Shown: piece after piece, positions 32 to 49,135 of the stretch | How positions within the stretch are numbered: the stretch's first letter is position 1 | Layout: each line of letters starts with the position of its first letter | Assembly (NCBI GenBank): GCA_903862655.1 | Contig: CAIOZA010000121.1 | Coordinates: 1-49,261 of the forward strand | DNA length: 49,261 bases | DNA from: an uncultured Ignavibacteria bacterium | Lineage (GTDB): Bacteria; Bacteroidota; Ignavibacteria; Kapaibacteriales; UBA2268 | Reading direction: 5' to 3' | The notes under the pieces: model-generated | Seen by the model: the letters and a program-made list of their open reading frames with translations, nothing else | What the model was told of the DNA's origin: nothing | The model's database searches: none | Position numbers and translations under genes: made by a program

Positions 32-3000
32 ATGTCCTTAAGAGTTTGTATGTTTTGTGTTTCATTTTTCTTATTCGCATCAGTTATGGGATTGGATGCA
101 CTGCCTAATCCGGATTTTGCCAAAAGTTCAAAATCATCTACATATAATTCAAAAGTCGCTTATACGATTAATATTCCCGGAACATCGCTTGGTAACGGTA
201 ATTTTACTCCAGCAAAAATAATCAATATTCAGAGAGTGAAGCGAGAAGATTATTTGCCCAACTCAGTTCATTTAAAAACAAAAGCTAGAGTTGCGATAGA
301 TAATAAGTCAAATCTGCTCTACTCATCGACTCTTATGTCTGATTTATCGCCATTGGGCATTAAGTCGGCACGACTACCATTCGTGTTTACAGAGGGGAAT
401 ATCCCCCTTGCCGCAGATCCATACGGTACTGATAGAATAATTGAAATTAATTATACCGAACAGGTTGATCCTTATGATGTCTGCGAACAGCTGATGAAGA
501 ATCCCGAAGTAGAGTATGCAGTTCCTGTTTTTGTATATCATACCGATGTCACTCCAAATGATCCGCAAATCGGTTCTCAATGGTGGGTTTCAAATTTGGA
601 ACTTCCTCAAGCCTGGGACGTGACCAAAGGCAGTAAAGATGTAATAATTGCTATTGTTGATTCAGGTACAGACTGGCTTCACGAAGATTTAAAAGATAAT
701 ATTTATACAAATCCAAAGGAAATAGCTGGCAATGGTATTGATGACGATAAAAACGGAAAGATTGATGATGTTCATGGCTGGGACTTGGTCGGTAATATCA
801 ATGCAACTCAAATCTCTGCTCAGGCATGGAAAGAAGATAATGATCCCAAAAATACAGGCATAAGTGACGACAATAAACATGGCACTCACGTTGCCGGTTG
901 TGCTTCTGCTTCCACTAATAACGGAATTGGTGTTGCAGGTACGGGATTCAATTGCTCAATACTTCCAGTTAAATGTGCAACAGATCAAACAGGAATAAGG
1001 GGCATTTATCGTGGTTATGAGGGTATTGCTTATGCCTCATTGATGAATGCTGACATAATTAATTGCAGTTGGGGTGGACCCGGATATACTCCTGTCGGAC
1101 AGGATATTATCAATTCTGCTATAGCTAAAGGGGCTGTTGTTGTTGTCGCCGCCGGTAATAGTAATCAGAATATAGATAACGGCGAACAGTATCCTGCTTG
1201 TTATGACAATGTTGTTTGCGTTGGAGCCTCTACTTCCTCCAATAAAGTAGCATCCTTTTCTAATACCGGATTGGCGGTAACTGTCTATACACCCGGAGCA
1301 TCAATTCTTGCGACTCTGCCTAATAATATGTATGGGAGCCTCGATGGTACATCTATGGCAAGTCCAATCACAGCAGGTTTGGCAGGACTGATTAAATCAA
1401 TCCATAAAGACTGGACTCCAAGACAAATATATCATCAGCTACGTTCAACTTGTGACAATGTTTTGACAACTGATCCGAACAGCAGACCTCTTTATTACGG
1501 CAGATCAAATGCGAATAAAGCAGTAACATATAATAACTTTGGCGGTCAAGGGATCCCCGGAGTTGAGGTATCGAAGGTTATTATGACATCCGGTGATGCT
1601 TTGACAGATTATGATCCCAAAGTCATACGGCTCGAATTAACGAATTATCTGGCGACTGTTTCCAATATGACAATGAAAATTGCACCTCAGGGAAACTTAC
1701 TAAGCGTCTCTACCCAAACGATTTCAGTTGGGAATATAGCCGGAGGAACGACGAAAAATATTGATATCACAGTTCAGATGTTACCGGCAAATCCTTGGTA
1801 CCAGGGAACAGCAAATCTGTTTGTTACATTCGAAAGCACAGGTTATACAAATTATCAGCTTGTCAAAATACCTGTCAAAATTAATACTAATAATAAATAT
1901 TCATCGCTGGGAACTTTTCAGGAGAATGATGTTCCCGACTGGAGCGGAGCTTACGTTCCAAATGAAAAGACACTCTGGGCAGTTGGGCTGGGTGGTATGT
2001 TCGGCAATGCCGGCGGATATTACAGAATCTTCAATGGACAGACTTCAGCGAATGCCGTTTCGAATGAATATCTTTACTGCATCTGGGCGAAAGATGAAAC
2101 CACTGCATTGGCAGGGTCAAGCAGTCAGGCAAATACATCAGCTTCAATTTTTAAAACAATTAATGGCGGTTCAACTTGGACCAGTAGCTCAGTTACAAGC
2201 ATATCAACATTTGTGAACGCTGTTAATATGTTTGACGCTAACTTTGGTGTTTTCCTGGGGGATCCCAAAGGGACTGTGTGGGGAGTTGGCAAAACATCGG
2301 ATGCAGGTAAAACCTGGTCGGCTGTTACGGGAGTTCCTGCAGCACAAGCAAGTGAATCCGGATATGTGGGCTCAAATTACTTTCTGGGTAACAATGCATG
2401 GTTCGGCACTACGAAAGGGCGCGTCTATCGGTCATTTGATAAAGGACTGTCCTGGGCTGTCTCAACGATAACAGGTGCCGGACAAATATCCAAGATTGCG
2501 TTTATGGACAAGAATAATGGACTTGCAGTTTACAATGAAACTGGTAAGAGTAATTCGGTTATCGCCTCTACAACCAATGGCGGTCAAACCTGGACATCAA
2601 ATAAATATAATCTCACAAATTACCAGCTCACTCCTATTTATTTTTATACATCCACAGATGCCGGAAAGATTTTTATGCTTTGTTCCGGTGGACAGGTGTT
2701 CAGCACAAAAACCAATGGAGCTACATGGGAAGGAGTTTTATCGGCTTATCATGGTAATGCAACTATCGGAGCTTGTGGGCAGCTATCTACAAGCAAGCTG
2801 AGAATGTGGGATATAGGCGAATCGATAGGACATCTCGATTTTAGCTATATTCCTGCTATTATCAATAATTCAGTTATTATGACAACTGCAAACGCTATGA
2901 ACTTTGATTCAGTCGATATTGGAAGCTGGAAAGTTCTTACTTCTACCTTCAGAAATACAGGCAATGTAGTAGCCCACATAACGCCAGTAGTAGAAGCAAA

Positions 3001-3454
3001 TTCGGGAATAGGAAGTGATGGATTCAAACTTTATGCTTTCAGTGCAGATTCAATTCAGCCAGGAGCAGATCTTAACGTAAAAATCAGATATAGTCCAACA
3101 ATCGAAGGTGCTAATAGTGCAGTTCTTAAGGTTGCAACAGGAACAGCCACAGAATTTCAGGTTCAGCTAAGCGGCTTCGCTGTGAAGCCAGTAAGCGTTG
3201 GAGACAATCCTATTATAAATTATGTATTTTTCATACAACCCAATCCTGCAACGGATTTCATAGAAATATCCGTAGGGGCGAACGGTCCTTCGCCCTTACA
3301 AAACGATGTTAGGATATATAATGTATTCGGACAAACTGTATTGTCTGTAGGGGCAATTCATGAATTGCCCCTACGTGTAGACATTTCCGGTTTGGCTCTG
3401 GGAATGTATTTTGTGAGGATTGGGGATATAATTAGTAAATTTGTAAAGCTGTAG
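32..3454 (+). CDS. T9SS-secreted subtilisin-like (S8) serine protease
   Basis: An 1140-residue extracellular protease with an N-terminal signal peptide (hydrophobic residues about 5-20) and a T9SS type A sorting domain (about 1066-1140). The S8 triad is complete: D210 in IVDSGTD, H283 in HGTHVAG and S441 in DGTSMASP, with oxyanion N376 in AAGN. After the catalytic domain come a beta-sandwich region (about 510-620), a BNR/sialidase-like propeller with repeated GG.TW motifs (about 630-930) and a HYDIN/ASPM-like beta domain (about 940-1050). Family knowledge predicts export by Sec and T9SS and hydrolysis of extracellular protein; the substrate is not visible. A GGAG-type RBS precedes the ATG. 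The sorting-domain DNA contains two palindromes (3272-3299 and 3347-3374) that are translated in frame. Confidence 0.93.
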   Translation: MSLRVCMFCVSFFLFASVMGLDALPNPDFAKSSKSSTYNSKVAYTINIPGTSLGNGNFTPAKIINIQRVKREDYLPNSVHLKTKARVAIDNKSNLLYSSTLMSDLSPLGIKSARLPFVFTEGNIPLAADPYGTDRIIEINYTEQVDPYDVCEQLMKNPEVEYAVPVFVYHTDVTPNDPQIGSQWWVSNLELPQAWDVTKGSKDVIIAIVDSGTDWLHEDLKDNIYTNPKEIAGNGIDDDKNGKIDDVHGWDLVGNINATQISAQAWKEDNDPKNTGISDDNKHGTHVAGCASASTNNGIGVAGTGFNCSILPVKCATDQTGIRGIYRGYEGIAYASLMNADIINCSWGGPGYTPVGQDIINSAIAKGAVVVVAAGNSNQNIDNGEQYPACYDNVVCVGASTSSNKVASFSNTGLAVTVYTPGASILATLPNNMYGSLDGTSMASPITAGLAGLIKSIHKDWTPRQIYHQLRSTCDNVLTTDPNSRPLYYGRSNANKAVTYNNFGGQGIPGVEVSKVIMTSGDALTDYDPKVIRLELTNYLATVSNMTMKIAPQGNLLSVSTQTISVGNIAGGTTKNIDITVQMLPANPWYQGTANLFVTFESTGYTNYQLVKIPVKINTNNKYSSLGTFQENDVPDWSGAYVPNEKTLWAVGLGGMFGNAGGYYRIFNGQTSANAVSNEYLYCIWAKDETTALAGSSSQANTSASIFKTINGGSTWTSSSVTSISTFVNAVNMFDANFGVFLGDPKGTVWGVGKTSDAGKTWSAVTGVPAAQASESGYVGSNYFLGNNAWFGTTKGRVYRSFDKGLSWAVSTITGAGQISKIAFMDKNNGLAVYNETGKSNSVIASTTNGGQTWTSNKYNLTNYQLTPIYFYTSTDAGKIFMLCSGGQVFSTKTNGATWEGVLSAYHGNATIGACGQLSTSKLRMWDIGESIGHLDFSYIPAIINNSVIMTTANAMNFDSVDIGSWKVLTSTFRNTGNVVAHITPVVEANSGIGSDGFKLYAFSADSIQPGADLNVKIRYSPTIEGANSAVLKVATGTATEFQVQLSGFAVKPVSVGDNPIINYVFFIQPNPATDFIEISVGANGPSPLQNDVRIYNVFGQTVLSVGAIHELPLRVDISGLALGMYFVRIGDIISKFVKL
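3272..3299 (+). repeat. 28-bp palindrome inside sorting-domain coding sequence (site A)
   Basis: Arms GTAGGGGCGAA and TTCGCCCTTAC flank a 6-base centre. It is translated in frame as VGANGPSPL, between the strand ending FIEIS and the strand DVRIYN of the T9SS domain. The same site holds a related element in the genes at 4123, 33780 and 45644. Confidence 0.85.
3347..3374 (+). repeat. Perfect 28-bp palindrome inside sorting-domain coding sequence (site B)
   Basis: The half-site GTAGGGGCAATTCA is followed directly by its exact reverse complement. It is translated in frame as VGAIHELPLR, between GQTVLS and VDISGL. Other genes carry different palindromes at the same site. Confidence 0.9.
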
Positions 3455-3503: not shown

Positions 3504-3981
3504 ATGAAGATTATTATTTTCGGTTTCTTAATCGCATTTGCTTTTATTTCATGCTATTCAATAGAAGTCGAATCAACTGAAATTGGTGGGAATTGGAACG
3601 ACACTCAAACTTGGATTAGTGGAACTATACCAACTCAAAATGATGATGTAATTATCAGAGGAAATGTTAAGATTAACACAAGTATAAGTTGTAAATCAAT
3701 AAATATAGCCAATGTTGGTAATCTTGAATTTATGAAGCAGGAAAAGAAGACTATATCGAGCGTTTCAGAAAATATTTATATTTTTGGACTGCTAATAATC
3801 AGCGAGAATTGTGAAGTTAATGTAAAAAATAGAATTTTTCGAGATGAAAATAACAAACCAAATCTTATGAATTTTGGGGTGATCGTTGTCGGGACGTAGC
3901 AGCGAAAATGTTACAGACTAACCACCAGGCATGTATTTTGTGAGGATTGGGGATAAGGTTGGGAAGTTTGTAAAGTTATAA
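3504..3981 (+). pseudogene. Broken T9SS-secreted protein: G8-like N-terminus plus frameshifted sorting-tail remnant
   Basis: The readable part (3504-3899, 131 residues) starts with a strong RBS (GGAAGGA) and a lipoprotein-like signal ending ISC. It continues with a W.D..TW..G..P...DDV.I pattern typical of the start of secreted beta-helix/G8-like proteins, then stops at TAG 3897. From 3925 to 3981, in another frame, the DNA encodes PGMYFVRIGDKVGKFVKL and a stop, which is the exact end of a T9SS sorting domain as seen in neighbouring genes. I read this as an internal deletion or recombination that joined a secreted N-terminus out of frame to a sorting tail. A short functional lipoprotein ending at 3899 is the alternative. 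A 98-bp repeat follows immediately. Confidence 0.75.
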
Positions 3982-3984
3982 TGC

Positions 3985-4082
3985 GGAAACTCCCTTAATA
4001 CCACTTGGAACAAGGGGGAGACAAAACAATAAATTGCAACGCCTGTATTAGCGCCCTTTTCCCAAGGGGGTTGGGGGTTTCT
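3985..4082 (+). repeat. ~98-bp repeat with inverted ends (family R98), copy 1
   Basis: It begins GGAAACTCCC and ends GGGGGTTTCT (inverted ends) and contains two hairpins, around TTGGAACAAGGGGG and CCCTTTTCCCAAGGGGG, separated by an ATTGCAACGCCTGTATT core. It starts four bases after the sorting-tail stop codon. Near-identical copies lie at 36286-36382 and 46830-46927, and partial ones at 33715-33774 and 47058-47090. Confidence 0.85.
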
Positions 4083-4122
4083 CAAGGTTAGAATTCCATT
4101 TGAAAAAGACATATAGGAAATT

Positions 4123-5355
4123 ATGAGAAAATCACTTTTACTTATTTGTTTAATATTAGGTTTATCAAATATTGCATCCGCAAAGTGGGAGCCATGTAAT
4201 AATGGCTTGAACGGGAAAAGAATAAACACAATGACGGTGTATAACGATACCTTATATATCGGTTCTGCCGGACAAGGGGTATTTATTTCGGTTGACAATG
4301 GCAATTCATGGCAAGCAAGAAATAATGGTATGGATACTCTAATGGTCAGGTCAATAGTAGTTAATGAGAGTTTAATCTTCGCATCAACTAACTACTTTGG
4401 CATTTTTATGTCAACCGACAGAGGACTTAGCTGGGTAAAGAAAAATAATGGATTATTGGATTCGACAATTTCTACAGTGATTATCAAAGACAAGGAACTG
4501 ATTTGTGCCACAAGTTATTATGGTGTTTTCACCTCGTCGGATAATGGAGATAATTGGGTTCAGAAGACAAAAGGTCTTGCTAATGAAGGTATGATGTATG
4601 TAAATCCATTGGTCTTAATCAATGATACAATATTCACAGGAGTGCAGTCCAGATATTCAGATCCTATTCAAGGAGGATTGTTTCTGTCAAATGATAATTG
4701 CGAAACATGGATTGACAGGACTGGAAATAATCTCAGTGATTTCATGAATATCAAGCGTATTATTATCAAAGATAATATCTGGTATATTGGAACCCTATTT
4801 GGTGGAGTTTACACAACAACAGATAAGGGATCAACTTGGACTCTGCCCGACACGACAGGATTGAATATTCCACTTGGCAATCCAAGAGTTTCAGCAATGG
4901 GAATGAAAGATGATTTTCTTATTATTGGCTCAGGTTACAATGGATTATTTGCAAAATTCGAAAATAAATGGGTAAATAAAAGTTATGGGACAAAATTCAG
5001 GAATCCCGGCAGCATTACATTCTACAAAGAATTTGTGTATGTAACTTCCGATAGTGGAGTACACAGATCAGTTTATAATCAATTACTCGATGTTAAAGAA
5101 TTTGCATCTAATTTTGATAGTGTTTCTATCTCCCCCAATCCTACTTCCGATTTCATAGAAATATCCGTAGGGGCGATCGGCCGTTCGCCCTTACAAAGTG
5201 CTATAAAAATATATAATATCTTCGGGCAAAACTGCGACCCCACCCCAGCCCTCCCCGCAAGCAGGGAGGGAGCTAGAATCGATGTTTCCGGTTTGGTTCC
5301 GGGGATGTATTTTGTGAGGATTGGAGATAGAGTCGGGAAGTTTGTGAAGATATAA
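4123..5355 (+). CDS. T9SS-secreted BNR/sialidase-like beta-propeller protein
   Basis: A 410-residue protein with a clean signal peptide (residues 1-20, ending IASA). The body is a propeller of repeated 'D.G..W' motifs (NGNSW, DRGLSW, NGDNW, KGSTW), the BNR/photosystem-II-stability-factor type of repeat, followed by a T9SS type A sorting domain (about 336-410). No catalytic residues can be assigned; a surface or adhesive role is only inferred. The start follows AGGAAATT. The sorting domain contains the site-A palindrome (5167-5194), while site B holds a different G/C-rich hairpin (5236-5272) encoding PTPALPASREG. The protein at 45644 is a close architectural relative. Confidence 0.9.
   Translation: MRKSLLLICLILGLSNIASAKWEPCNNGLNGKRINTMTVYNDTLYIGSAGQGVFISVDNGNSWQARNNGMDTLMVRSIVVNESLIFASTNYFGIFMSTDRGLSWVKKNNGLLDSTISTVIIKDKELICATSYYGVFTSSDNGDNWVQKTKGLANEGMMYVNPLVLINDTIFTGVQSRYSDPIQGGLFLSNDNCETWIDRTGNNLSDFMNIKRIIIKDNIWYIGTLFGGVYTTTDKGSTWTLPDTTGLNIPLGNPRVSAMGMKDDFLIIGSGYNGLFAKFENKWVNKSYGTKFRNPGSITFYKEFVYVTSDSGVHRSVYNQLLDVKEFASNFDSVSISPNPTSDFIEISVGAIGRSPLQSAIKIYNIFGQNCDPTPALPASREGARIDVSGLVPGMYFVRIGDRVGKFVKI
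5167..5194 (+). repeat. 28-bp palindrome in sorting-domain coding sequence (site A)
   Basis: GTAGGGGCGATCGG faces CCGTTCGCCCTTAC (imperfect inverted repeat). It is translated as VGAIGRSPL between FIEIS and the IKIYN strand, the same position as 3272-3299. Confidence 0.85.
5236..5272 (+). repeat. G/C-rich hairpin element in sorting-domain coding sequence (site B, second type)
   Basis: The core is CCCTCCCCGCAAGCAGGGAG, a stem of CCCTCCC-type arms around GCAAGC. It is translated as PTPALPASREG before the IDVSGL strand. The same element is at site B of the gene at 36385 (positions 36468-36504), so two unrelated repeat families use one insertion position. Confidence 0.8.
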
Positions 5356-29351: not shown

Positions 29352-30701
29352 CTATTTAATCACAAAAGGCAGCGTCATATTCTTCTTCCCATTCGATATT
29401 TTTACGAAATACGCTCCCGCACTCAATCCAAGATCTTTCAGTGATATATTCTTTGCCTCTGCCGATACTAGTAATTCAGTTATTTTCAATCCCATTGAAT
29501 TGTAGAGAATTGCATTCTGCATATTATAATTCATTGGTGATTCGATGTTTATAGTCGTTTCTGCCGGATTCGGGTAAACATAATATCTCTCCTGTGCCGG
29601 GTTTTCGGTAACATCCATAGGTAAAGAGTAAATAGTTACATTTGAATCCAAAGTATATGCCGCATCAAGATAGGGAGTAGCGATAAAGAACATTCCACCA
29701 ATTGCCATAAAGCCCTCTGGTTTTGCTTTCGAATCAAATTTACCCATCAGCTTTTTGCCCTGATGAATATACACATTGCCGTCATAAGCTGAAGTAAGCA
29801 GCATTCCATTCATAACGCCAGCTGTCTGATAAACCGATTCCCTTGGACCATCATAGGTTCCTAGCGTTAAAGAAAGCGAATCCATTGAGTAATCAGTAAG
29901 ATTTATCTTTTTAACCCGATTGGAAGAGTTACATGTGATATATACTGAATTTTCCGATTCACTATAATCTATGTGAGATGGCGTACCATCAATATCCATC
30001 TCTTTGATTATCGTATGTTTAGCTGCAGATACATCTATAACCTGGAACTTGCCGCCGCTTTTGCCGAAAGTACCTTCGCTGATGATTAATAACTGGCCAT
30101 TTCCTTCAGGTATAGTCTGCTGAACAGAGATTCCGGCTGGAATCGTATCCGTATAAACTTTCTTAATCTTATCATAAACAAGAACATAACCCGGATCTGT
30201 ATAAGATGGTCTTACGCTGATATAGAGAAAATCACCCGATGATGAAACAGCAGAAGCTGTTACATCAACGATCTTTTCAATATAAACGGAATCAAGATGA
30301 ATAAAGCTAACTGCTGAAATGCTTTTTTCATTTGTAATATAGAGTTTTTGCACTTTTTCATCCCAAAAATTTCTGACAGGTAATACTGACAATTTAAACT
30401 CAAGGTCAGTTATCTTGTAAGTACTAACATGAACAGATTGAATTTCTGAAGAAATAAATTTTGTTAATCGCTTTAATCCTACCGCCCACAGTGATGGTGA
30501 TACATCTCCTGTATCTTTAATTCCGTTATAATTTAAATCTCTGCCCGCACAATATACAACTGGACCAATATTTGTGTTATATACAGCGACAGGCTGAACA
30601 CCGACCTCATACCTTCCTTCGAATAAATAACCATATTGAGCACTAGCTAGAACTGAAAGCAATAAGAATAGTACCAAAGATAGTAAAGTTAAGCGTTTCA
30701 T
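29352..30701 (-). CDS. T9SS-secreted beta-propeller protein, first gene after the cobalamin riboswitch
   Basis: A 449-residue protein with a signal peptide (1-21, ending ASAQ), a beta-propeller of DUF5074/YncE-like blades (QVIDVSAAKHTIIKEMDIDG; SVYITCNSSNRVKKINLTDY) and a T9SS sorting domain from about 372 (YVYPNPAETTINIES ... GAYFVKISNG). The tail has no inserted palindromes. It is the first gene downstream of a cobalamin riboswitch on the same strand and precedes the BtuB-like receptor. It may be a T9SS-delivered counterpart of BtuG, giving the locus two propellers with different anchoring. That role is inference; a structural role is possible. Confidence 0.82.
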   Translation of the reverse strand: MKRLTLLSLVLFLLLSVLASAQYGYLFEGRYEVGVQPVAVYNTNIGPVVYCAGRDLNYNGIKDTGDVSPSLWAVGLKRLTKFISSEIQSVHVSTYKITDLEFKLSVLPVRNFWDEKVQKLYITNEKSISAVSFIHLDSVYIEKIVDVTASAVSSSGDFLYISVRPSYTDPGYVLVYDKIKKVYTDTIPAGISVQQTIPEGNGQLLIISEGTFGKSGGKFQVIDVSAAKHTIIKEMDIDGTPSHIDYSESENSVYITCNSSNRVKKINLTDYSMDSLSLTLGTYDGPRESVYQTAGVMNGMLLTSAYDGNVYIHQGKKLMGKFDSKAKPEGFMAIGGMFFIATPYLDAAYTLDSNVTIYSLPMDVTENPAQERYYVYPNPAETTINIESPMNYNMQNAILYNSMGLKITELLVSAEAKNISLKDLGLSAGAYFVKISNGKKNMTLPFVIK

Positions 30702-33779: not shown

Positions 33780-36245
33780 TTATAATTTCACAAACTTCCC
33801 GACACTATCCCCAAACCTGACGAAATACATCCCTGATGGGAGGGAGGAGACAACTAATCGTAGGGGTTCAAGATTTTGAACCCCTACAGACAATACAGTT
33901 TGTCCAAATATATTTAAGATCTTCACATCACTTAGTAAGAGCGAACGGCCGTTCGCCCCTACGAATATTTCTATGAAATCAGTTGCAGGATTGGGAGAAA
34001 TAGAGAAATCAGACTGATTATATTCTACGGCATCCTCTTCAACTGGAGAATAAGAGAAAGTTAGATCCGAGCAAATTTCCCAATCAAGTATATCATTATT
34101 CTCATAGGATGTGCCAGTCGATGAAGTAAATCCTACAAAAGCTGATGTTCCGTTATTTAGTGAGAGAAGTTTCGATATATCGATTGAATCGATTTCCAGA
34201 ATAGGCTTTTCGAATTTTCCGGTTGAATCGAGGAAAACAATTAATTTACTTGGATTAATGCTATACTTTATCTGTACATGATATATCGTGCTGTCGGCTC
34301 TTATCTGAATAATATCATTAGTTGTTTTGAGATTAGCCTTGGAATTATGATTACATGTGTTTGCCTTAATTCCATTCGAAAAGACAGCTACATGATTGCC
34401 ATCTAAATCGAAATAGGGCTTATCTTCGTTCTTATAAGTATCGAATTCAATTGCCAGGCTGTTGGAAATGCCTTCATATCCAAGTCCTCCGCCTGAATTG
34501 CCGTATGATAGTGGATAGGCATTTTGTATAACGAAGGCAATACCATCGGCACCGGGCAAAGAACCATCATCGAAATCATTATATGGAGATGACATCCTGA
34601 ATTTAAATTTTGCTGTGAAACCATTGCTCACATTTATAAGGTTCTTTGACCAAACAGCTCCAGACTGATTAGCTTTTGCCGGAGTCAACCTGAGTACAGA
34701 ATAAACTTTCTCAGCAGATTTTACAAAATTCAAACTGCTAATAACTGAAAAATTTGGAAGAGTAAATGATGTATAATCACATCTCTTTGAATATTTTGCA
34801 AGGAAAATGTCGTAAAATCCATTTGACTTGATAATTTTTTTGTTTAATTCAATCGCTAGACGAAAATTGCCTGTTACAATGATATCCTGATTTTTGTCTT
34901 CTGTTATTTTGGTAGGAACTATATATGATCCTGAATCCTGATAACTAATTGAGTTGCTACCCTTAGCCGTTCCATTGCTATCAAACAAAACAAGAAATCC
35001 CTGAATAATATTTTTATGTGAATTATTAAGAATCTCATTTCCAAAGTTCAATCTCGAAGAGTAAGTCCAGCCACATGCTAATAAATTATTATTGTCTTTT
35101 AAGTAAAACGAAGTTAAACAATCATCACCGTTACCACCAAACGTCTTAACCCATTGTACATCACCATCAGAATCGCATTTAGCAATATAAATATCAGATT
35201 GTGTAGTGTCCATTATTTTTTTTAATTGAAATCCGGGAGCAAAATTTCCATCCTTAAAAAAATATCCGGTAATATAGAAGTTGCTGTAACTATCAAAAGC
35301 AATATCAGTAAGAGTTATTAAATCATTAAAAATATAGTCTGACTGACCTGCAAATATTTTAACCCATTTCAATAGGCCATCAATAGTATAATTGGCAACA
35401 AAGATATTTCTTGAATTGGGAGTATTAACACTTTTATCTACAAATTTTCCATCACCGAAATCAGTTGGGTCAAACATATAACCCGCAATAGTTAATGTAT
35501 TATTTGGACTCCATCTGATTATGCAGTCAGCACCCCAAATATCAGTAATATCTTTTTGTATTAATCTTTTAGCCCACTGGCAATATCCATTGGAATTATA
35601 TTTCGCGAAGAACGGCATTTGTCCATTGTTATTGTTTAATTTGACTCCGTTTCCAAAATCAATATTATTGCAATAACCACTGATGTAGATGTTGTTGTCG
35701 CTGTCCAGACATATATCCATTCCCTGTGAACCCTTTATAGAGCCTATTGTATCGCCGCTTATACAGTGAGCCCAGAGGCAATTGCCATCAGGGGAATATT
35801 TTACAAAAAATATATTGTTGAAATTATCACCACTAACCACAATTCCATTACCAAAACTAATTCTTTTGGCTACACCTCTGGTCTGACCTACAAAAAGGAT
35901 ATTACCTTCATAATCTAAGAGTGAATTTGTAATCTCAATTTCTTTGTAATAACCTCTGATTGGTCTGATCCATTGGCATACACCATTGGGATTCAACTTT
36001 GAAATTATTAAAGTATTCTGTGTACTATCTTTATTATTAAAGACTAGAATATTGCCAAAATCAACAGAATCGGATTCATAAGATCCGGCGAAATAAATAT
36101 TCCCTACATTATCACAAGTAACAGAATTATTAAGATCAAACGAATCACCCCCAAAAGTCTTAAGCCACTCAAGGCTCTTGATTTCACCTGCATCGACCTG
36201 AAGAATGGAAATTAATATGCAAATACCAACTAGAGCTGATCTCAT
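33780..36245 (-). CDS. T9SS-secreted SBBP-propeller/legume-type lectin protein
   Basis: An 821-residue protein with a signal peptide (1-19). Repeated SBBP-like propeller blades cover about 25-480 (WLKTFGGDSFD, DSDNNIYISGYCN, KTFGGNGDDC). Next is a legume-type (L-type) lectin domain (about 505-730) with GADGIAFVIQNA, the GGGLGYEGI loop, NSLAIEFDTY and the DLDGNHVAV metal/sugar loop. A T9SS sorting domain (about 746-821) ends it. It is likely a surface glycan-binding protein; the ligand is unknown. The sorting domain carries palindromes at site A (33935-33962) and site B (33860-33887), and a partial R98 repeat follows the stop. It lies directly downstream of another T9SS gene (36385) on the same strand, with an R98 copy between them. 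Confidence 0.92.
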   Translation of the reverse strand: MRSALVGICILISILQVDAGEIKSLEWLKTFGGDSFDLNNSVTCDNVGNIYFAGSYESDSVDFGNILVFNNKDSTQNTLIISKLNPNGVCQWIRPIRGYYKEIEITNSLLDYEGNILFVGQTRGVAKRISFGNGIVVSGDNFNNIFFVKYSPDGNCLWAHCISGDTIGSIKGSQGMDICLDSDNNIYISGYCNNIDFGNGVKLNNNNGQMPFFAKYNSNGYCQWAKRLIQKDITDIWGADCIIRWSPNNTLTIAGYMFDPTDFGDGKFVDKSVNTPNSRNIFVANYTIDGLLKWVKIFAGQSDYIFNDLITLTDIAFDSYSNFYITGYFFKDGNFAPGFQLKKIMDTTQSDIYIAKCDSDGDVQWVKTFGGNGDDCLTSFYLKDNNNLLACGWTYSSRLNFGNEILNNSHKNIIQGFLVLFDSNGTAKGSNSISYQDSGSYIVPTKITEDKNQDIIVTGNFRLAIELNKKIIKSNGFYDIFLAKYSKRCDYTSFTLPNFSVISSLNFVKSAEKVYSVLRLTPAKANQSGAVWSKNLINVSNGFTAKFKFRMSSPYNDFDDGSLPGADGIAFVIQNAYPLSYGNSGGGLGYEGISNSLAIEFDTYKNEDKPYFDLDGNHVAVFSNGIKANTCNHNSKANLKTTNDIIQIRADSTIYHVQIKYSINPSKLIVFLDSTGKFEKPILEIDSIDISKLLSLNNGTSAFVGFTSSTGTSYENNDILDWEICSDLTFSYSPVEEDAVEYNQSDFSISPNPATDFIEIFVGANGRSLLLSDVKILNIFGQTVLSVGVQNLEPLRLVVSSLPSGMYFVRFGDSVGKFVKL
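33860..33887 (-). repeat. 28-bp palindrome in sorting-domain coding sequence (site B)
   Basis: GTAGGGGTTCAAGA faces TTTTGAACCCCTAC, with one mismatch. It is translated as VGVQNLEPLR. The element at 46718-46745 is almost the same, while the one at 3347-3374 differs in its inner arm. Confidence 0.87.
33935..33962 (-). repeat. 28-bp palindrome in sorting-domain coding sequence (site A)
   Basis: On the coding strand GTAGGGGCGAACGG faces CCGTTCGCTCTTAC, nearly perfect. It is translated as VGANGRSLL between IEIF and DVKILN. Confidence 0.87.
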
Positions 36246-36285: not shown

Positions 36286-36382
36286 GAAACCCCCAACCCC
36301 CTTTGAAAAAGGTGGCTAATACATACATTGCAATTAATGTTTTTGTTTCCCCCTTGATCCAAGGGGGATTAAGGGGGTTTCT
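36286..36382 (-). repeat. R98 repeat, full copy after the giant T9SS gene
   Basis: Both inverted ends are present (GAAACCCCC and GGGGGTTTC), with the hairpins CCCCCTTGATCCAAGGGGG and CCCCCTTTGAAAAAGG. On the minus strand it starts two bases after the stop of the gene at 36385. Confidence 0.88.
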
Positions 36383-36384
36383 TC

Positions 36385-39300
36385 TTATAACTTTACAAAC
36401 TTCCCAACACTATCCCCAATTCTCACAAAATACATCCCCGATGGAAGGGATGAAACATCGATTCTTACTCCCTCCCTGCTTGCGGGGAGGGTTGGGGAGG
36501 GGTTAACATCCTGCCCATAAACATTGAATATATCTACCCTAACACTTTCGGAAAGCTCCCAGCTTTGCGAAAGTTGAATCGTCAGCTCATCAATCACAGG
36601 ATTCTCCATAATTTGGAATGAAGGATTGATTAACAGCGTTAATCGTGATATATTCGGCTGGCAAATACCGATTATTTTTAGAGAGCCGTCATGCTTTTCA
36701 TTGCTAATGTTAGCCTTTGACCAACTAAAATTAGATATCTTCAATGGAACTGAACTATTATCTGGAAGAAATATCTTGCCGCAAAATTCATATATCTTTG
36801 TGTCTATCGCATAAAGTTGGATGTTGTCCGCACTTATGTTCAGCACTCTTTCGCCTGCGATGATTGTGCTATTGAGGTTATTCGGAAGCATAGCTGTGGC
36901 ATTGAACCTGATTTCTGCAGTGAAGCTTAGAGGTTCGCTTATGGAAATATTTGCTTCTCTCCTTGCCATCAGCGGAATACAGAAGCCGGGATCTCCAATT
37001 TTAGCAGTTGTATCGGGTAGCCAAACCAATGTCATAGTCGATGTCGTGCCCTTCATCGCAATTTCTTTCGTGAAAGCACACGGTAAGTCAGACTCAACAA
37101 TCAGTTGGTCTGCATAATCCATGTAATCATTCGGTCGGAAACTGACTGAAATTGTTAAACTGCTGTCGGGACTTAACAGCTTAGGCAAGTCAGGAAAAGT
37201 AGATACAAAGAACTCCTTAACGGCATTCTTTGCATATATTTTTGTGATATTTATTGCTGTGTTCGATTTATTTGTGTAGATCATGTCTTTCTTTATGTCT
37301 GCTCCGGCGGCAAGTGTACCATAATCCAGATCGACCAATCCCGCAGTATTGATTTTATATTCTGTCAATGTGTGTTCTGCGTTGTTTTGACAGCCGTTTG
37401 CGTCGGTCACAGTGAGTTTATAAGTTCCGCCCTTCGTAACTCTGATCTCTTTCGTCATTTCTCCGCTTTCCCACTGATATGACTCAAAATCGTTATCTGC
37501 ACTAAGCTTAACGGTACTTCCCGAACAGAAAACCGAATCTCCGATTATGTTGAACGATGGTTTGTTGTTCTTCTCGACAGATATTTCAGCGGCTCCGGTA
37601 CATCCGTTTGAATCCGTAACAATAACAGTATATTTGATTGGTGCTTCGACAGTAATAGACTTTGTGACATCTCCTGTTGACCACTGGTAATCACTATAAT
37701 CGCCGTCAACAGACAGAGTTGTCATTTCACCCTGGCAAATCTTTGTTCGTCCGCTGATTGTAGGGGTAGGATTGGGATTAACTTTGATGAAGATAGAGGC
37801 TGTGTCGTAGCATCCGGCTTGATTCATCACTTCGACCTGATAATTGCCTGTTTTGCCGACAGTGATGGTCTGCAATGTTTCGCCAGTCGTCCAACTGTAA
37901 GTAACATTTGTATCTGGCTGAACGGTGTTCAGCCTTAACTTAAGATTGTCAATGCCCCAGGATTCATTTTGAAAATTCGAGGAAATATCGCGAAGTAATG
38001 CGTTCAATCCCAGCTGAAGAGTAGGGCAATTGTGTGCAAATCTGTAATTAAGCCTGTAAACAGTGGCACTAAAGCTCACCTGTTCATTGTTTATCATTAG
38101 TTTATCAATTGCGCCGGAATCCTTGGGATTATCTCCTCCCGGGTATCTATCAGGATAAGCCTGCCGTGCGCCATCCATTCTCGAAAAAGATGTTGTGCTG
38201 GAATACGATGTATTGCAGTTCAGATCCAGCACTCTGAACAGATCGGGACCGTTGGCAGTATTGACATTCCCGTCCCACGTTGCGACAACATACATATCGA
38301 ATGACACATCGACAGAATCGTGCAACGGCAGATTACCAAGGGTCAGCTTAATCATTTGATTGCCGAAGAGACCCAAATAGCGACGAGTCGGAAATTCGTT
38401 CGAATCGGGTTTTATTGGATTCTGCCATTCGGGATCAGTGATCTTTGTTGACCATTCAGGAAATGACCTTCTTATTTCAAAATTCTCGCTGTAATAATCT
38501 CCTCCCCACTGATACTTATATCCAATCCCGGCTTTTGCCTGAAGCACAACACTGTCACCCTCACAGAATGAAGTTGCACCAAGAGCAGAAAGAGTAACTT
38601 TGGGTTTATCGGATTGGATGATAGTTCGTGCTGCTGTATCACAGCAACCGAACTCGTTTGTGATGACCACAGAATAATTTCCACCTTTGGATACGCTTAT
38701 TTCATCTGTCGTTTCGCCGGTTGACCATTTCAGAGTATATTTTGTTGTATCGTCAGATTTGGCTTGAAGCATGACAGGATTCCCCCCGCAAATGATTGAA
38801 TCGCCCTTAAAAGCTACATCAACTTTAGGCTTGGGATTGACCATAACATATACGCTATCGGTAGCAACCTCAGCATTCGAAGTTACAGTAAGTTTATAGT
38901 ATCCGCTCATTGAAGGATCTGCATTGGGTATTACGGGATTACTTAAATCAGAAGTAAAGCCGTTAGGACCTGACCAGGAATAAACTGCAACAGGAGAATT
39001 ATTTATTAGATTGGAGAATAAGTATAATGTTTCACCACTACAGATATTACCTGCAACAACTTTAATGCTCATTTTGAAAGGAATATTTACATAATTCGGC
39101 AAGCCAGCTGCAGTTTGGGCATTTGTGACAATTGAAAGTGGAACCGCATTATAGTTAAAGTCACATTTTTGTCCAATTAGATTTGGTCTATTTATAGAAC
39201 TAAGTGATCTTCTTGCATAAAAGGACAAATATATTTTTTCATCAGGACCTAACTGAATAGCTCCAGCGTACAGACCACTTCCCGAACTATCTCTAAAGAC

Positions 39301-40266
39301 AGTGTAAGCATGGTTCAAGATCGAATCAGCATTTGAATAATTTAAGTCAAATTGATAAACGACAGGATCATTTGGTGGAAAAGTACCAGATACAAAAAGT
39401 TTTTTATTATCTGGTGAAAATTCAATTCCATAAGGTCCTGTCAATATTGAAATATCTTGTATCGAAATACAATTTGAAATTATACCAGATTCATTATCAA
39501 AATCAAATATTTCTATATTACCATTATAATGGATTGCTAATGCAATTTTTTTGCCATCAGGCGAGAATTTCATATATCCTAATCCATTCAAATCATAATT
39601 CTCTTTTATCGTTCGATTTCGATTATGCTTAGATCCAATACTTTGAAATATCGGATCGGTTAGCTTACCTGATGAATCAAGTTTCAGGGTGATAAATCTG
39701 TCGGAATCAAATTCATGAGCTATGATCCATATTTCCTTATTATTTTTATGAATAAAAGATGTTTGTTTCTCAGTGGATGATTTATAAATCAATATATTTT
39801 TGGTTGAAATATCTCCTAGACCCTTGTCTAATCTCATATCTACAATTGAATATCTAAACCCATTATTATCAATTGAATCAAGATTTAGTACATCAACACC
39901 AGTATAATCAACAGTAAAAATATAATATATTGAAGGATCATGAGGTGATTTTAATATCATTGCTGATTGTGTTGATGTAACACTTCCCATCAATTCAATC
40001 CCATCAGGCATAAGTTTGTGTTTGTTATTCCATACATTTCTGCCATCAGTATAAAATAACAAAGAACCTTTTGCATCTGAAATTGAAGCACATCCCTCAT
40101 TTTGCAGAATCGAACTTGCATGTAATGCAATTGGTTGGTTATAGGGTGTATTGAAAGTTATAGCTGCATGATTACCAAAAAACCAGTTATAATTTTCTTT
40201 CTGCCCGAACGCCAAACTGCTGACTGCAATGGCGATAACGAATAAAATTGTAATTCTCTGCTTCAT
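36385..40266 (-). CDS. Giant T9SS-secreted protein: propeller, Ig-like repeats, cohesin-like domain
   Basis: A 1293-residue protein with a signal peptide (1-21). The N-terminal ~400 residues form a propeller of the type opening NWFFGNHAAITF, common in T9SS/gliding-type proteins. Then come Ig/PKD-like repeats (about 405-1000) with WSTGETTDEISV, SWTTGETLQTITV, WSTGDVTKSITV and WESGEMTKEIRV. A ~225-residue jelly-roll-like segment (about 585-810) interrupts the second Ig repeat. After a CHU_C/Abnormal-spindle-like region and a cohesin-like domain, a T9SS sorting domain ends the protein. Only site B of the tail holds an inserted element (36468-36504). It is likely a surface or adhesion protein with no enzyme motif. 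Confidence 0.9.
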   Translation of the reverse strand: MKQRITILFVIAIAVSSLAFGQKENYNWFFGNHAAITFNTPYNQPIALHASSILQNEGCASISDAKGSLLFYTDGRNVWNNKHKLMPDGIELMGSVTSTQSAMILKSPHDPSIYYIFTVDYTGVDVLNLDSIDNNGFRYSIVDMRLDKGLGDISTKNILIYKSSTEKQTSFIHKNNKEIWIIAHEFDSDRFITLKLDSSGKLTDPIFQSIGSKHNRNRTIKENYDLNGLGYMKFSPDGKKIALAIHYNGNIEIFDFDNESGIISNCISIQDISILTGPYGIEFSPDNKKLFVSGTFPPNDPVVYQFDLNYSNADSILNHAYTVFRDSSGSGLYAGAIQLGPDEKIYLSFYARRSLSSINRPNLIGQKCDFNYNAVPLSIVTNAQTAAGLPNYVNIPFKMSIKVVAGNICSGETLYLFSNLINNSPVAVYSWSGPNGFTSDLSNPVIPNADPSMSGYYKLTVTSNAEVATDSVYVMVNPKPKVDVAFKGDSIICGGNPVMLQAKSDDTTKYTLKWSTGETTDEISVSKGGNYSVVITNEFGCCDTAARTIIQSDKPKVTLSALGATSFCEGDSVVLQAKAGIGYKYQWGGDYYSENFEIRRSFPEWSTKITDPEWQNPIKPDSNEFPTRRYLGLFGNQMIKLTLGNLPLHDSVDVSFDMYVVATWDGNVNTANGPDLFRVLDLNCNTSYSSTTSFSRMDGARQAYPDRYPGGDNPKDSGAIDKLMINNEQVSFSATVYRLNYRFAHNCPTLQLGLNALLRDISSNFQNESWGIDNLKLRLNTVQPDTNVTYSWTTGETLQTITVGKTGNYQVEVMNQAGCYDTASIFIKVNPNPTPTISGRTKICQGEMTTLSVDGDYSDYQWSTGDVTKSITVEAPIKYTVIVTDSNGCTGAAEISVEKNNKPSFNIIGDSVFCSGSTVKLSADNDFESYQWESGEMTKEIRVTKGGTYKLTVTDANGCQNNAEHTLTEYKINTAGLVDLDYGTLAAGADIKKDMIYTNKSNTAINITKIYAKNAVKEFFVSTFPDLPKLLSPDSSLTISVSFRPNDYMDYADQLIVESDLPCAFTKEIAMKGTTSTMTLVWLPDTTAKIGDPGFCIPLMARREANISISEPLSFTAEIRFNATAMLPNNLNSTIIAGERVLNISADNIQLYAIDTKIYEFCGKIFLPDNSSVPLKISNFSWSKANISNEKHDGSLKIIGICQPNISRLTLLINPSFQIMENPVIDELTIQLSQSWELSESVRVDIFNVYGQDVNPSPTLPASREGVRIDVSSLPSGMYFVRIGDSVGKFVKL
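36468..36504 (-). repeat. G/C-rich hairpin element in sorting-domain coding sequence (site B, second type)
   Basis: The coding strand has CCCTCCCCGCAAGCAGGGAG as core, read as PSPTLPASREG before the VRIDVSSL strand. It is the same element as 5236-5272. Confidence 0.82.
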
Positions 40267-45559: not shown

Positions 45560-45643
45560 AGACTATTTTCAAAATCCGTGAGACGTTTTGCGTTTTGATG
45601 TGTCTTAGTATATACGGGTGTGTCAATTTTTGGAAAAGTTATT

Positions 45644-46825
45644 ATGAAAAAGATAATACTTTTGATTTTGCTTCTTTTTAGTTATAGTTCTTATTCATAT
45701 TGGTGGGAACAATGCAATCTAGATCTAAAGGGAGACAAATTATATTGCATAAATGCTTTCGAGAGCAGAGTATTTGTTGGTTCAGATAGTGGAAGGGTAT
45801 ATCTTTCAGATAATAACGGCGATAACTGGAATGTTATTAACACAGGATTTCCCTTCGTCGAAATAACATCAATTGCAATTGCAAAAAATAAAATTTTTGC
45901 TGCTACAGATAGTATCGGGATATTAATTTCTTCAGATAATGGCGATAGCTGGAATAAATCTAGTCTTGAGGATTATGATATTAGAGTATTGAAAAGTAGA
46001 GATAGTACAATTTATGCAGGATCTCAAAGTGGAAAAATTTTAATTTCAAATGATCTGGGAGTTAATTGGAGAAAATCAGAATTAACCGATAAACCAATTA
46101 CATGCATGGCTTTATCGGCTAATAATATTTGTGTCGGCACTCTCGGAAGAGGTGTCTTCTTATCATCAGATAATGGTGAAAATTGGATAATACGAAATAA
46201 TGATAATTGGTATTTACTCTATATTTTCTCTATCGCCATACTCAATAATAATATTTACAAGGGTGGGGTTCCAGGATTTAGTGTTTCAACAGATTTGGGC
46301 TTATCGTGGGAAAGTAAAAAGATTCCAGGAACTGAAGTAAGTTCTGTTAACTCGATATTAATAATTGATAACAATCTAATTGCAGGAACATCACATCCCA
46401 TGGAAAATCTTGGTGTTATTCAATCATCTGATAATGGCGATACATGGCATTATATTGGTTTGGATACGTTGGAAATTAATGACCTTGCTTTCAATAGCGA
46501 ATATATTTTTGCTATTGATAATAAGGGAAAAATCTTCAGACGAAAATTAAATGAGATTATCAAAACTGATATAATAGAAGCTAATTTAAAATTCGAAAAT
46601 CTAATTTCTCCTAATCCCGCCTCCGATTTCATAGAAATCACTTGTAGGGGCGAGGTTACCTCGCCCTTACAAAGCGATGTGAGGATATATAATGTCTATG
46701 GGCAGAATGTAATGTCTGTAGGGGTTCAAAATCTTGAACCCCTACGTATAGATGTTTCCGGTTTGGCTCGCGGGATGTATTTTGTGAGTATTGGGGATAT
46801 AGTTGGGAAGTTTATAAAAATATAA
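45644..46825 (+). CDS. T9SS-secreted BNR-type beta-propeller protein
   Basis: A 393-residue protein; I start at ATG 45644 (MKKIILLILLLFSYSSYS, a clean signal peptide with GGAAAAG upstream) rather than GTG 45620. The body has repeated NNGDNW, NGDSW, LGVNW, NGENW, LGLSW and NGDTW motifs, a BNR/sialidase-like propeller closely resembling the protein at 4123. It ends in a T9SS sorting domain (SPNPASDFIEI ... GMYFVSIGD). Palindromes occupy both tail sites (46644-46670 and 46718-46745), and a full R98 repeat begins four bases after the stop. No enzyme motif; the role is unknown. Confidence 0.9.
   Translation: MKKIILLILLLFSYSSYSYWWEQCNLDLKGDKLYCINAFESRVFVGSDSGRVYLSDNNGDNWNVINTGFPFVEITSIAIAKNKIFAATDSIGILISSDNGDSWNKSSLEDYDIRVLKSRDSTIYAGSQSGKILISNDLGVNWRKSELTDKPITCMALSANNICVGTLGRGVFLSSDNGENWIIRNNDNWYLLYIFSIAILNNNIYKGGVPGFSVSTDLGLSWESKKIPGTEVSSVNSILIIDNNLIAGTSHPMENLGVIQSSDNGDTWHYIGLDTLEINDLAFNSEYIFAIDNKGKIFRRKLNEIIKTDIIEANLKFENLISPNPASDFIEITCRGEVTSPLQSDVRIYNVYGQNVMSVGVQNLEPLRIDVSGLARGMYFVSIGDIVGKFIKI
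46644..46670 (+). repeat. 27-bp palindrome in sorting-domain coding sequence (site A, different frame)
   Basis: GTAGGGGCGAGGTT is followed by ACCTCGCCCTTAC. It is one base shorter than its 28-bp relatives, and one extra base precedes it, so the left arm is read as CRGEVT in place of VGANG while the right arm keeps the SPLQ frame. Confidence 0.87.
46718..46745 (+). repeat. 28-bp palindrome in sorting-domain coding sequence (site B)
   Basis: GTAGGGGTTCAAAA faces TCTTGAACCCCTAC. It is read as VGVQNLEPLR, like 33860-33887. Confidence 0.87.
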
Positions 46826-47539: not shown

Positions 47540-49135
47540 ATGAAAAAGCCAAAAATCCTTCTAATTCTGATTATTCTTTTATCTTGTGCAAACGCACAGA
47601 CACCTTCCATCAAGTGGTGGTTCGATACGAAAGATGCATCTTTCGGTCAATCAGCTGCAGGAGATATTGATGGTGACGGTAAGCTGGAGATAGTTTTTGG
47701 CTGCTACCGTAACGATAGTTGTGTTTATGCTCTTAATGCTGAAGACGGCAGTCTGTTGTGGAAGTACAACACAGGCGGATGCAACGATGTTGCTCCTATA
47801 ATATATGATGTAGATGGAGACTCAAAGCCCGATATTGTTGTCCCTGCTTCGTGCAATCCAACTACTTTCTGTCTGGATGGACAAACCGGAACAGTGAAAT
47901 GGCAAACTCCGACAAGAGGAAGCGATTCGCCCCCAACTATTGCAGATATTGACAATGATGGTAAAACTGAAATACTTCATGGTGAATTCGGTGGCTATGT
48001 AATCTGCATCAATGCCGAAAATGGATCGAAAAAGTGGGAAATCGCTGTGGATACCAATTCATGGATTCAGACTGCTCCAACGATAGTTGATCTTGATGGT
48101 GACGGAAAGCTTGATTATGTTGTCGGCACCTGGAATTTCGATAATCAGGATAAAATCTATGCTTATCATGGTGATGATCTTTCTCTTTTGTGGAGTTATA
48201 CAATTAATGCCTATATGTATCATGGCACTGCTGTAGCCGATCTAGACAAAGACGGAAGACCGGAATTATTGGTAGGTGCTTACAATGATACTCTTTATTG
48301 CCTAAATGGTGAGAATGGAACTCTAAATTGGAAATATTTCGGATCAGGGGGATATATCGGAGCACCTGCAACAATAGGAGATATTGACAATGATGGTAGC
48401 TGCGATGTCGTGTTTGTAAGCGGATACAGAGTGATAGCACTTTCAGGCAATGGCATAAAAAAATGGGATTATTCGATTTCCGGTTATAGTGGAGCTTTCA
48501 GAGGTGTAGTTTTATCAGATATTAATAATGATCCTTATCCTGATGTAATTTTCGGCAATGATAGTGGTAAAGTTATAGCATTAAATGGTTATAGTGGAAA
48601 AGAGCTTTGGACAGTAGATTTAGCTCAACATTATGGCAAAAAAGCGTTTGCTTTAGATCATGCTCCTCTAATAGCTGATTTTGATGGGAATGATTCTCTT
48701 GAAGTGTTTATCGTTGGAGGTCATGGAGAATATCCTGCTATTGAAAATGGTTTTGGCCGAGCTTATATGGTGAGTGTTGGTAAAGGTAATGGACCAGACT
48801 GGCTGATGTTCCAACGGGATATCCGGCGGCAGTCATCACTTTGCGAATTTTCAACTGGCATTGAGGACACTCAGATAACTCCTATTAAGGAAACAGTAAA
48901 AGTATTTCCCAATCCGGTAACAAATTCTACTTCAATCCAATTCATTAATCCCAAAAATGAGAATTATACTCTTATGATTTATAATGAGGTTGGATCGCTA
49001 ATCCAGAAGATTGACAATATCACAGGAAATGACTTAAATATAAATAACTGTGATTTCGAGTCAGGAGTTTACTTTTTCCAATTGCAAAGCATCAGTGGAG
49101 TTGAAGGAGATGGTGAATTTGTGCTAATGAAATAA
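47540..49135 (+). CDS. T9SS-secreted FG-GAP/PQQ-like beta-propeller protein
   Basis: A 531-residue protein with a signal peptide (1-20, ending ANAQ). Eight propeller blades combine PQQ-like strands (LNAEDGSLLWKYNT, LNGENGTLNWKY) with FG-GAP/VCBS calcium loops (DIDGDGKLEIVFG, DVDGDSKPDIVV, DLDGDGKLDYVVG, DIDNDGSCDVVFV). A T9SS sorting domain starts near 455 (VFPNPVTNSTSIQF ... GVYFFQLQS). The DxDxDG loops bind Ca2+ in the family. The sorting tail has neither palindromes nor an R98 repeat and its DNA differs from the cassette-type tails. Role unknown; the architecture fits a surface adhesin or structural protein. Confidence 0.92.
   Translation: MKKPKILLILIILLSCANAQTPSIKWWFDTKDASFGQSAAGDIDGDGKLEIVFGCYRNDSCVYALNAEDGSLLWKYNTGGCNDVAPIIYDVDGDSKPDIVVPASCNPTTFCLDGQTGTVKWQTPTRGSDSPPTIADIDNDGKTEILHGEFGGYVICINAENGSKKWEIAVDTNSWIQTAPTIVDLDGDGKLDYVVGTWNFDNQDKIYAYHGDDLSLLWSYTINAYMYHGTAVADLDKDGRPELLVGAYNDTLYCLNGENGTLNWKYFGSGGYIGAPATIGDIDNDGSCDVVFVSGYRVIALSGNGIKKWDYSISGYSGAFRGVVLSDINNDPYPDVIFGNDSGKVIALNGYSGKELWTVDLAQHYGKKAFALDHAPLIADFDGNDSLEVFIVGGHGEYPAIENGFGRAYMVSVGKGNGPDWLMFQRDIRRQSSLCEFSTGIEDTQITPIKETVKVFPNPVTNSTSIQFINPKNENYTLMIYNEVGSLIQKIDNITGNDLNINNCDFESGVYFFQLQSISGVEGDGEFVLMK

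Follow-up and report, generated by a model that had tools for sequence, protein, structure and literature searches.

Diverse in-frame palindromes at two matching sites of T9SS type A sorting domains in an uncultured Ignavibacteria bacterium

The window analyzed here, a stretch of 49,261 nucleotides of DNA from an uncultured Ignavibacteria bacterium, contains five genes in which palindromic or hairpin-forming elements lie within the DNA that encodes a type IX secretion system (T9SS) sorting domain. Profile searches place this domain at the C-terminus of all five proteins, with TIGR04183 and PF18962 both above their curated cut-offs, and so confirm the first-pass annotation of these genes. The elements occupy two positions that are the same in all five genes: site A lies between the FIEI and V.IYN strands, and site B between GQ and IDVSGL. 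The reading frame stays open through the elements in each of the five open reading frames, and the palindromes are thus in frame. The features are as follows.

3239..3451, + strand: T9SS type A sorting domain of gene 32-3454 (subtilase S8); TIGR04183 25.4 bits (cut-off 23), PF18962 37.1 bits (cut-off 27)
3272..3299, + strand: site A palindrome of gene 32-3454, family A1 (GTAGGGGCGAACGGTCCTTCGCCCTTAC); peptide VGANGPSPL
3347..3374, + strand: site B palindrome of gene 32-3454, family B1 (GTAGGGGCAATTCATGAATTGCCCCTAC); 14 perfect pairs; peptide VGAIHELPL
5134..5352, + strand: T9SS type A sorting domain of gene 4123-5355; profile match
5167..5194, + strand: site A palindrome of gene 4123-5355, A1 variant; hairpin score 7
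5249..5270, + strand: site B hairpin of gene 4123-5355, family B5 (CCCTCCCCGCAAGCAGGGAGGG); score 7; peptide about PALPASREG
33783..33995, - strand: T9SS type A sorting domain of gene 33780-36245; profile match
33935..33962, - strand: site A palindrome of gene 33780-36245, A1 variant; hairpin score 7
33860..33887, - strand: site B palindrome of gene 33780-36245, family B2 (GTAGGGGTTCAAAATCTTGAACCCCTAC); peptide VGVQNLEPL
36388..36603, - strand: T9SS type A sorting domain of gene 36385-40266; profile match
36544..36574, - strand: site A palindrome of gene 36385-40266, family A7 (ACTTTCGCAAAGCTGGGAGCTTTCCGAAAGT, an ACTTTCG..CGAAAGT hairpin); 13 pairs, 1 mismatch
36470..36491, - strand: site B hairpin of gene 36385-40266, family B5; score 7
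46610..46822, + strand: T9SS type A sorting domain of gene 45620-46825; profile match
46644..46670, + strand: site A palindrome of gene 45620-46825, family A4 (GTAGGGGCGAGGTTACCTCGCCCTTAC, 27 nt); hairpin
46718..46745, + strand: site B palindrome of gene 45620-46825, family B2; hairpin

Both sites are filled in all five genes. The first-pass annotation was right that site B is filled in every one of them, but it had counted only four filled A sites, having overlooked the A7 palindrome at 36544-36574(-). Hairpins were scored as the number of pairs minus twice the number of mismatches, with a loop of up to 8 nucleotides and at most one mismatch. By this measure two other sorting domains of the window, at 29373-29579(-) and 48902-49093, have no such element, their best hairpins scoring 6 and 5.

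Other features of the window touch on the same genes. The protein of 33780-36245 has matches to an SBBP-type propeller and a legume-lectin-like domain fused to its sorting domain. At 3904-3978 the 3' end of a sorting domain stands alone, with no open domain preceding it; the genome has comparable 3' fragments at other places, for example on contigs C140, C142, C6 and C107, as if domain ends had decayed or been copied separately. Intergenic C/G-run repeats of the cccaagggggttgggggttt type lie near sorting-domain genes (in the window at 4030-4090 and 36349-36377) and are possible donors or terminators.

An AlphaFold2 model of the first sorting domain of the window (mean pLDDT 87, pTM 0.76, 24 sequences) has predicted strands at residues 20-26, 37-40, 46-50 and 58-61, and inter-strand loops at residues 27-36 and 51-57. 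Residues 25-33 come from the site A element and residues 50-58 from the one at site B, so each element spans a predicted loop together with a residue or two of strand, and sites A and B would accordingly correspond to inter-strand loops in the modeled fold. Foldseek places the model closest to the T9SS substrate complex 8glk (chain D), at an E-value of 7.3e-3, and returned no match at E <=0.001. The domain thus resembles known T9SS type A sorting domains (TIGR04183/PF18962; solved relatives 7pzj, 8qb1 and 8glk) in its above-cut-off profile matches and, with weak Foldseek E-values, in its nearest fold, and it differs from them in that two of its loops carry DNA repeats. The genome contains one SprA_N match (153.6 bits) as a marker of the type IX translocon.

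We extended the analysis to the host genome of the window (G000; 4.07 Mb in 148 contigs), aligning its sorting domains at the DNA level and counting hairpins at the two sites against other coding DNA. A search with PF18962, in which the best 150 of 304 candidates were scored, was combined with a search using a profile of the local subfamily, which gave at least 123 matches with the best 150 of 183 candidates scored. There were 65 full-length and strong (>=62.8 bits) matches to the profile, of which 62 were aligned and three left out. Segments of filled length numbered 54 at site A (>=12 residues) and 55 at site B (>=14 residues) in these 62 domains. A hairpin score of at least 8 was reached by 37 of the 54 site A segments and 23 of the 55 site B segments, compared with 5 of 590 windows of 48 nt drawn at random from upstream coding DNA and none of 62 domain tails. 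Synonymous-codon shuffles of the same sites reached this score in 1.3% (site A) and 0.9% (site B) of cases. With the threshold lowered to 7, the level of those window elements that fall below 8 (the site A hairpins of genes 4123 and 33780 and the B5 hairpins), the counts are 43/54 and 39/55 against 26/590 upstream windows and 0/62 tails. Likewise, an unselective census of hairpins with at least 12 pairs and a GC content of at least 0.4 found 0.52 per kb within domains and 0.05 per kb elsewhere, in a 635 kb sample that had been chosen around domains and palindromes, is marked as sorting domain over 6% of its length, and includes among the hairpins from elsewhere several that actually lie inside domains absent from the list. 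Site A is 13 residues long in most of the filled domains, and the eight domains with short site A loops (7-8 residues) all score below 8. These empty-loop lengths do not fit a model in which 28 nt are inserted into an empty loop to give 13 residues, and the exact empty site can therefore not be reconstructed.

Palindromes of the types searched genome-wide are almost absent outside sorting domains. The matches of both profile searches together cover 40.5 kb, or 1.0% of the genome. A GTAG-type pattern returned 38 rows representing 32 distinct places (2 rows for the reversed-pattern control), and 30 of the 32 places lie inside sorting-domain profile matches; at least 19 of the 32 fall within the PF18962 matches listed. 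One of the two exceptions, on contig C119, overlaps a partial sorting-domain match that is a relic by its translation; the other, at C122:32551, is outside any match and in no open reading frame of 300 nt or more. The CCCTCYCC hairpin pattern of families B4 and B5, with two mismatches allowed, gave 31 rows and 25 places against none for the reversed control, with 23 of the 25 places inside profile matches and exceptions at C12:52825 and C67:1829. Copies outside the domains are so few that this genome shows no evident donor pool for new families. Site counts, census and genome-wide places thus agree that these palindromes are far from equally frequent in unrelated genes and positions.

The elements at each site are diverse. 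Among the 62 domains, labels assigned by peptide pattern form seven groups at site A (A1 in 27 domains, A2 in 5, A3 in 7, A4 in 1, A5 in 7, A6 in 2 and A7 in 3) and seven at site B (B1 in 9, B2 in 5, B3 in 7, B4 in 8, B5 in 13, B6 in 5 and B7 in 3, with two singles), and 10 of the 62 domains have no label at either site; the labeling is approximate, C46:34449 for instance being labeled B4 with a peptide that resembles B7. Families A2 and B3 share a GGGCGGGTT..AACCCGCCC core, which therefore occurs at both sites, and the number of distinct element types is accordingly about a dozen. The A2 element is found at site A in both orientations (C15:68164). A GTAG tag stands beside the short palindrome in A1, A2, A3, A4, B1 and B2, some copies having changed tags, and is lacking in A5, A6, A7, B4, B5, B6 and B7. 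The occupation of matching loops of one secretion-tag domain by different, unrelated palindromes, which the first-pass annotation had proposed from five genes, is thus seen genome-wide. Among the GTAG-less elements, double hairpins (GTC..GAC followed by CCCC..GGGG) are present at site B in B6 and B7 domains of this genome and at L147 and L152 of a genome of another genus (G009); judged by eye, the stems differ between the genera and the layout is kept.

The palindromes look much younger than the domains that surround them. Among pairs of A1 copies with identical residues, the fraction of identical codons is 0.91 for the core, while the domain tail has 0.59 and the 5' flank 0.68, and the difference between core and tail has a bootstrap range of 0.27-0.38. 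Families A2, A3, A5, B1, B3, B4, B5 and B6 point in the same direction with fewer copies and with flank codons included. Recognition of families by peptide may under-represent old, decayed copies and so favor young ones in this comparison. Mere hitchhiking would have given the palindromes a divergence like that of their neighbors; being less diverged, they look younger than their host domains. Likeness among A1 copies could in principle reflect constraint, and two observations argue that it reflects youth instead. Among 32 changed pairs, counted in 26 of the 27 A1 domains, none shows a compensatory double change, two single changes make a pair and 19 pairs are broken. In the A1 core, 19 nonsynonymous and 12 synonymous changes give a ratio of 0.70 relative to expectation; the corresponding ratio for the tail is 0.15. 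A1, the largest family and the best sampled, shows no strong maintenance of either hairpin or peptide. The proposal that the hairpins act in mRNA folding consequently finds no support in this family, and decayed hairpin copies persist among the 62 aligned domains. The suggestion that the loops may tolerate insertion fits both the predicted structure and this relaxed pattern of substitution. In family B1, two copies (C31:33086 and C86:9044) appear by eye to have kept their pairing through paired changes in the arms, so that pairing may at times be restored, and some B1 copies have derived arm changes in common, as simple descent would give.

The elements are largely, and not wholly, decoupled from the bodies of the domains that carry them. 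There are 24 combinations of A and B families among 49 domains, with an association p of 0.0125. On a tree of domain bodies that kept 49 of the 62 domains (10 unlabeled and 3 incomplete ones being left out), the A label changes 19 times compared with a mean of 22.0 in shuffles and the B label 27 times compared with 32.2; shuffles were as low as observed in 5 of 300 (A) and 2 of 300 (B) cases, so both labels keep some signal. These counts are soft since the body tree is poorly resolved, with 1 of 46 inner branches starred. Similar flanks adjoin different families: GAAATATCC forms the left flank in 13 of 27 A1, 3 of 5 A2 and 3 of 7 A3 elements, CAAAGCGAT the right flank in 9 of 27 A1, 3 of 7 A3 and the one A4 element, and GTATTGTCT stands before 6 of 9 B1 and 2 of 5 B2 elements. 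At the same time the domain DNA as a whole is related beyond codon usage, with identical-codon fractions of 0.57-0.67 where 0.42-0.46 would be expected; the 60 nt upstream of the domains have a mean ungapped identity of only 0.35, and in some pairs the common DNA extends past the stop codon. Codon youth, the combinations and tree, and the like flanks lend indirect support to the recombination between copies that had been suggested on first inspection. Orthologues filled in one strain and empty in another did not come to light, and no transposition or conversion event was seen directly. One pair of domains at locus L019 (C24:69901-70119 and 76942-77160) is 97% identical over its last 72 bases and has different elements at both A and B, which suggests mosaic conversion within the domain.

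Comparison with relatives indicates that the same sites are filled differently in other genera. The nearest named matches of the G000 sorting domains are in MAGs of Ignavibacteria and Kapabacteria. Shared 31-mers (1369 for the 1399-base locus L174 and 2210 for the 2240-base locus L175) identify genome G009, from another genus of the same family, with the MAG 'uncultured Ignavibacteria bacterium Loclat_bin-16206'. In a sample of 34 of its loci, 9 of them without a parse, a hand count finds a score of at least 8 at site A in 14 and at site B in 14 of the 25 distinct parsed domains; upstream windows reach it in 7 of 400. Sites A and B are filled there largely with other elements than in G000. Some element types also switch sites between genomes: the AIHELPL palindrome (B1) is at site B in G000 and at site A in G009, and the VQN[LF]EPL palindrome at site B in G000 and at site A in G098. 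Genome G098 is a weak comparison, with 22 of 30 loci parsed, two scoring at least 8 and only L247 having elements, at both sites. Two further named MAGs carry hairpins at the sites: CoA_1_bin.73 (L176) has one at site A with 9 pairs and a single mismatch, for a score of 7, and in N1_Bin_METABAT__253_1 (L179) the scores are 11 (site A) and 8 (site B). Titles assign 14 of the 44 named loci to Ignavibacteria, Ignavibacteriae, Kapabacteria or Kapaibacterium and nearly all of the other 30 to Bacteroidota; in those 30, a score of 8 is found only at L184, in an A/T-rich hairpin near site B, and scores of 7 are scattered over various places in several loci. The largely different hairpins at these sites in another genus, and the switching of sites by some element types, mark the elements as insertions and not ancestral domain sequence.

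A strict site A pattern (GAAAT..GTAGGGG) occurs in 5 of 123 genomes of the order (G000, G009, G098, G071 and G087); its places in the first three lie within sorting domains, and no sorting domain was recognized around those in G071 and G087. GTAG palindromes are numerous in G003 and G016, and none of the open reading frames around the palindromes examined there shows a sorting domain. The GTAG elements begin at the same codon in the domains of three genera, with preceding bases that vary by genus (AAC, AAT and TCC).

Transposases of the REP type are a potential link to these elements. G000 has 14 matches to Y1_Tnp, 13 of them over the cut-off. One Y1_Tnp (REP-type) transposase gene, at L018 1459-1959(-) on contig C6, itself contains an in-frame palindrome of the A2/B3 type (peptide IRAGLESAPT), with a second copy just upstream of the gene; directly before the in-frame copy is what we take to be an HUH-like motif. 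This putative transposase is the only one of eight inspected Y1_Tnp loci with such a palindrome in or beside it. Repeats of the CCCTACGGG type occur near the Y1 transposase loci L011 and L012. In G025, from another family of the order, two paralogous Y1-like transposases (L121, about 1500 and 2148) carry in-frame GTAG palindromes at a corresponding place after the HUH-like motif, with peptides VGATRRVAPT.. and VGATHASPL. In the domain elements of G000, GTAG is often preceded by TCT or TCC. According to the available passages of PMC8266576, the TnpA_REP enzymes of E. coli and S. maltophilia cut at a CT next to GTAG hairpins. The likeness to that TnpA_REP/RAYT system, as those passages present it, is that G000 has Y1_Tnp genes, one of them with an in-frame palindrome whose type recurs in sorting domains; the difference is that any role of the G000 transposases in moving the sorting-domain elements is putative.

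We think it probable that REP-like palindromes entered two permissive loops and then spread and swapped among paralogous tags by short-tract exchange. REP-like elements, GTAG-tagged ones together with other hairpin types, would enter two surface loops in frame in one subfamily of T9SS type A sorting domains. From one paralogous domain to another the palindromes would then spread and displace each other, largely on their own rather than together with the domain body; the likeliest means is gene conversion or short-tract recombination at the palindromes, perhaps with the assistance of a REP transposase (TnpA_REP/RAYT). The loops would tolerate the elements, allowing in-frame, stop-free copies to survive; the effect of the elements on secretion, or its absence, is inferred. 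A further, more tentative idea, which we regard as possible and somewhat doubtful, is that the loops are standing docking sites for hairpin DNA whose residents are repeatedly swapped for unrelated palindromes, in frame at the same codon, by a hairpin-directed process, either single-strand transposition by TnpA_REP or hairpin-initiated gene conversion, the secretion tag of this bacterial family being both habitat and vehicle of a community of selfish palindromes.

The chief alternative to short-tract exchange is that a transposase inserts the elements directly. In its site-directed form, a TnpA_REP-type enzyme would insert hairpins at both sites as attachment sites without recombination between domains. 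The Y1_Tnp matches, the palindromes within and upstream of the transposase gene on C6, the common start codon of the GTAG elements in three genera, and the frequency of TCT or TCC before GTAG alongside the cleavage at CT in the available passages of PMC8266576 all speak for such an enzyme, but the same sites are used by elements without GTAG, the bases before GTAG vary by genus, and by eye the two sites share no evident target motif; we consider this reading improbable. We consider it about equally unlikely that a few tolerated insertions were multiplied by duplication of the sorting domains alone, the palindromes hitchhiking and never moving by themselves. That would account for domain DNA that is related beyond protein conservation next to upstream DNA that is not, for DNA shared past the stop codon in some pairs, and for the derived arm changes common to some B1 copies; pure cassette hitchhiking is nevertheless disfavored by palindromes far more alike than the adjoining domain codons, by different families in like flanks, by the many A/B combinations, and by the largely other families at the same sites in G009.

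A very improbable explanation is selection on the nucleic acid: the mRNA or DNA hairpin would serve in stability, translation pausing or the control of recombination, and the palindromes would be retained for that role. This reading can point to hairpins far more frequent than in synonymous shuffles, to certain site B elements from two genera that resemble, by eye, stem variants of one two-hairpin design, and to the two B1 copies whose paired changes preserve pairing; against this, none of the changed A1 pairs is compensated, 19 are broken (a count made for A1 only), and decayed copies persist. The idea that the segments are conserved or convergent protein loops whose codons are palindromic by accident has in its favor the 13-residue site A of most filled domains. 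We reject it as having next to no probability, given the elements of the other genus, the short-loop members of G000 without such hairpins and the outside loci without them (a score of 8 in only 1 of 30, L184), along with the unrelated peptides at the same site and the occurrence of one and the same palindrome at site A of one genus and site B of another. The relatives G009 and G098 and the named loci thus do not show these segments as ancient conserved sequence.

Known repeats of two kinds come close to this case. In the available passages of Di Nocera 2013 (PMC3733652), GTAG REPs are short palindromes of 20-40 bp with GTAG at the 5' end, in many families, mostly intergenic and sometimes within open reading frames; the latter are in varied genes and at different sites, and REPs in recB of two Xanthomonas are at about the same site while those in other genes are not. 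The elements described here are like these in their 5' GTAG, their short palindrome, their occurrence within open reading frames and the presence of Y1 transposase genes in the genome, and differ from what those passages describe in that nearly all exact copies lie in two homologous loops of one domain family, alongside GTAG-less elements; with 30 of 32 exact places inside sorting-domain matches, the copies are not dispersed and mainly intergenic. RPEs, according to the passages available from PMC10969869 and PMC3733652, are palindromes of about 150 bp that are translated in frame within open reading frames of unrelated genes. In-frame translation is shared, and the size of about 20-40 nt, the dozen or so types and the restriction to the same two loops of one paralogous domain family rule out membership of the Rickettsia-type RPEs as those passages describe them. 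In the titles, starts of abstracts and passages of the open-licence PMC literature we found no prior description of palindromes in T9SS sorting domains, which is not proof of absence, and among the matches listed for the text of GTAGGGGC nothing looked related by title or abstract start. In-frame palindromes themselves are known; the turnover of palindromes at two homologous sites of a tag family appears to be new.

This family of sorting domains amounts to a natural many-copy experiment in which short mobile DNA becomes protein, with about fifty domains in one genome, about a dozen element types, two loops and other genera with sets of their own. It suggests that loop peptides of many kinds are compatible with the secretion tag, a property that would help in engineering T9SS export. 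The movement or conversion of REPs can here be dated against the flanking codons. If hairpin-directed exchange is indeed at work, it would constitute a new route for repeats into coding DNA.
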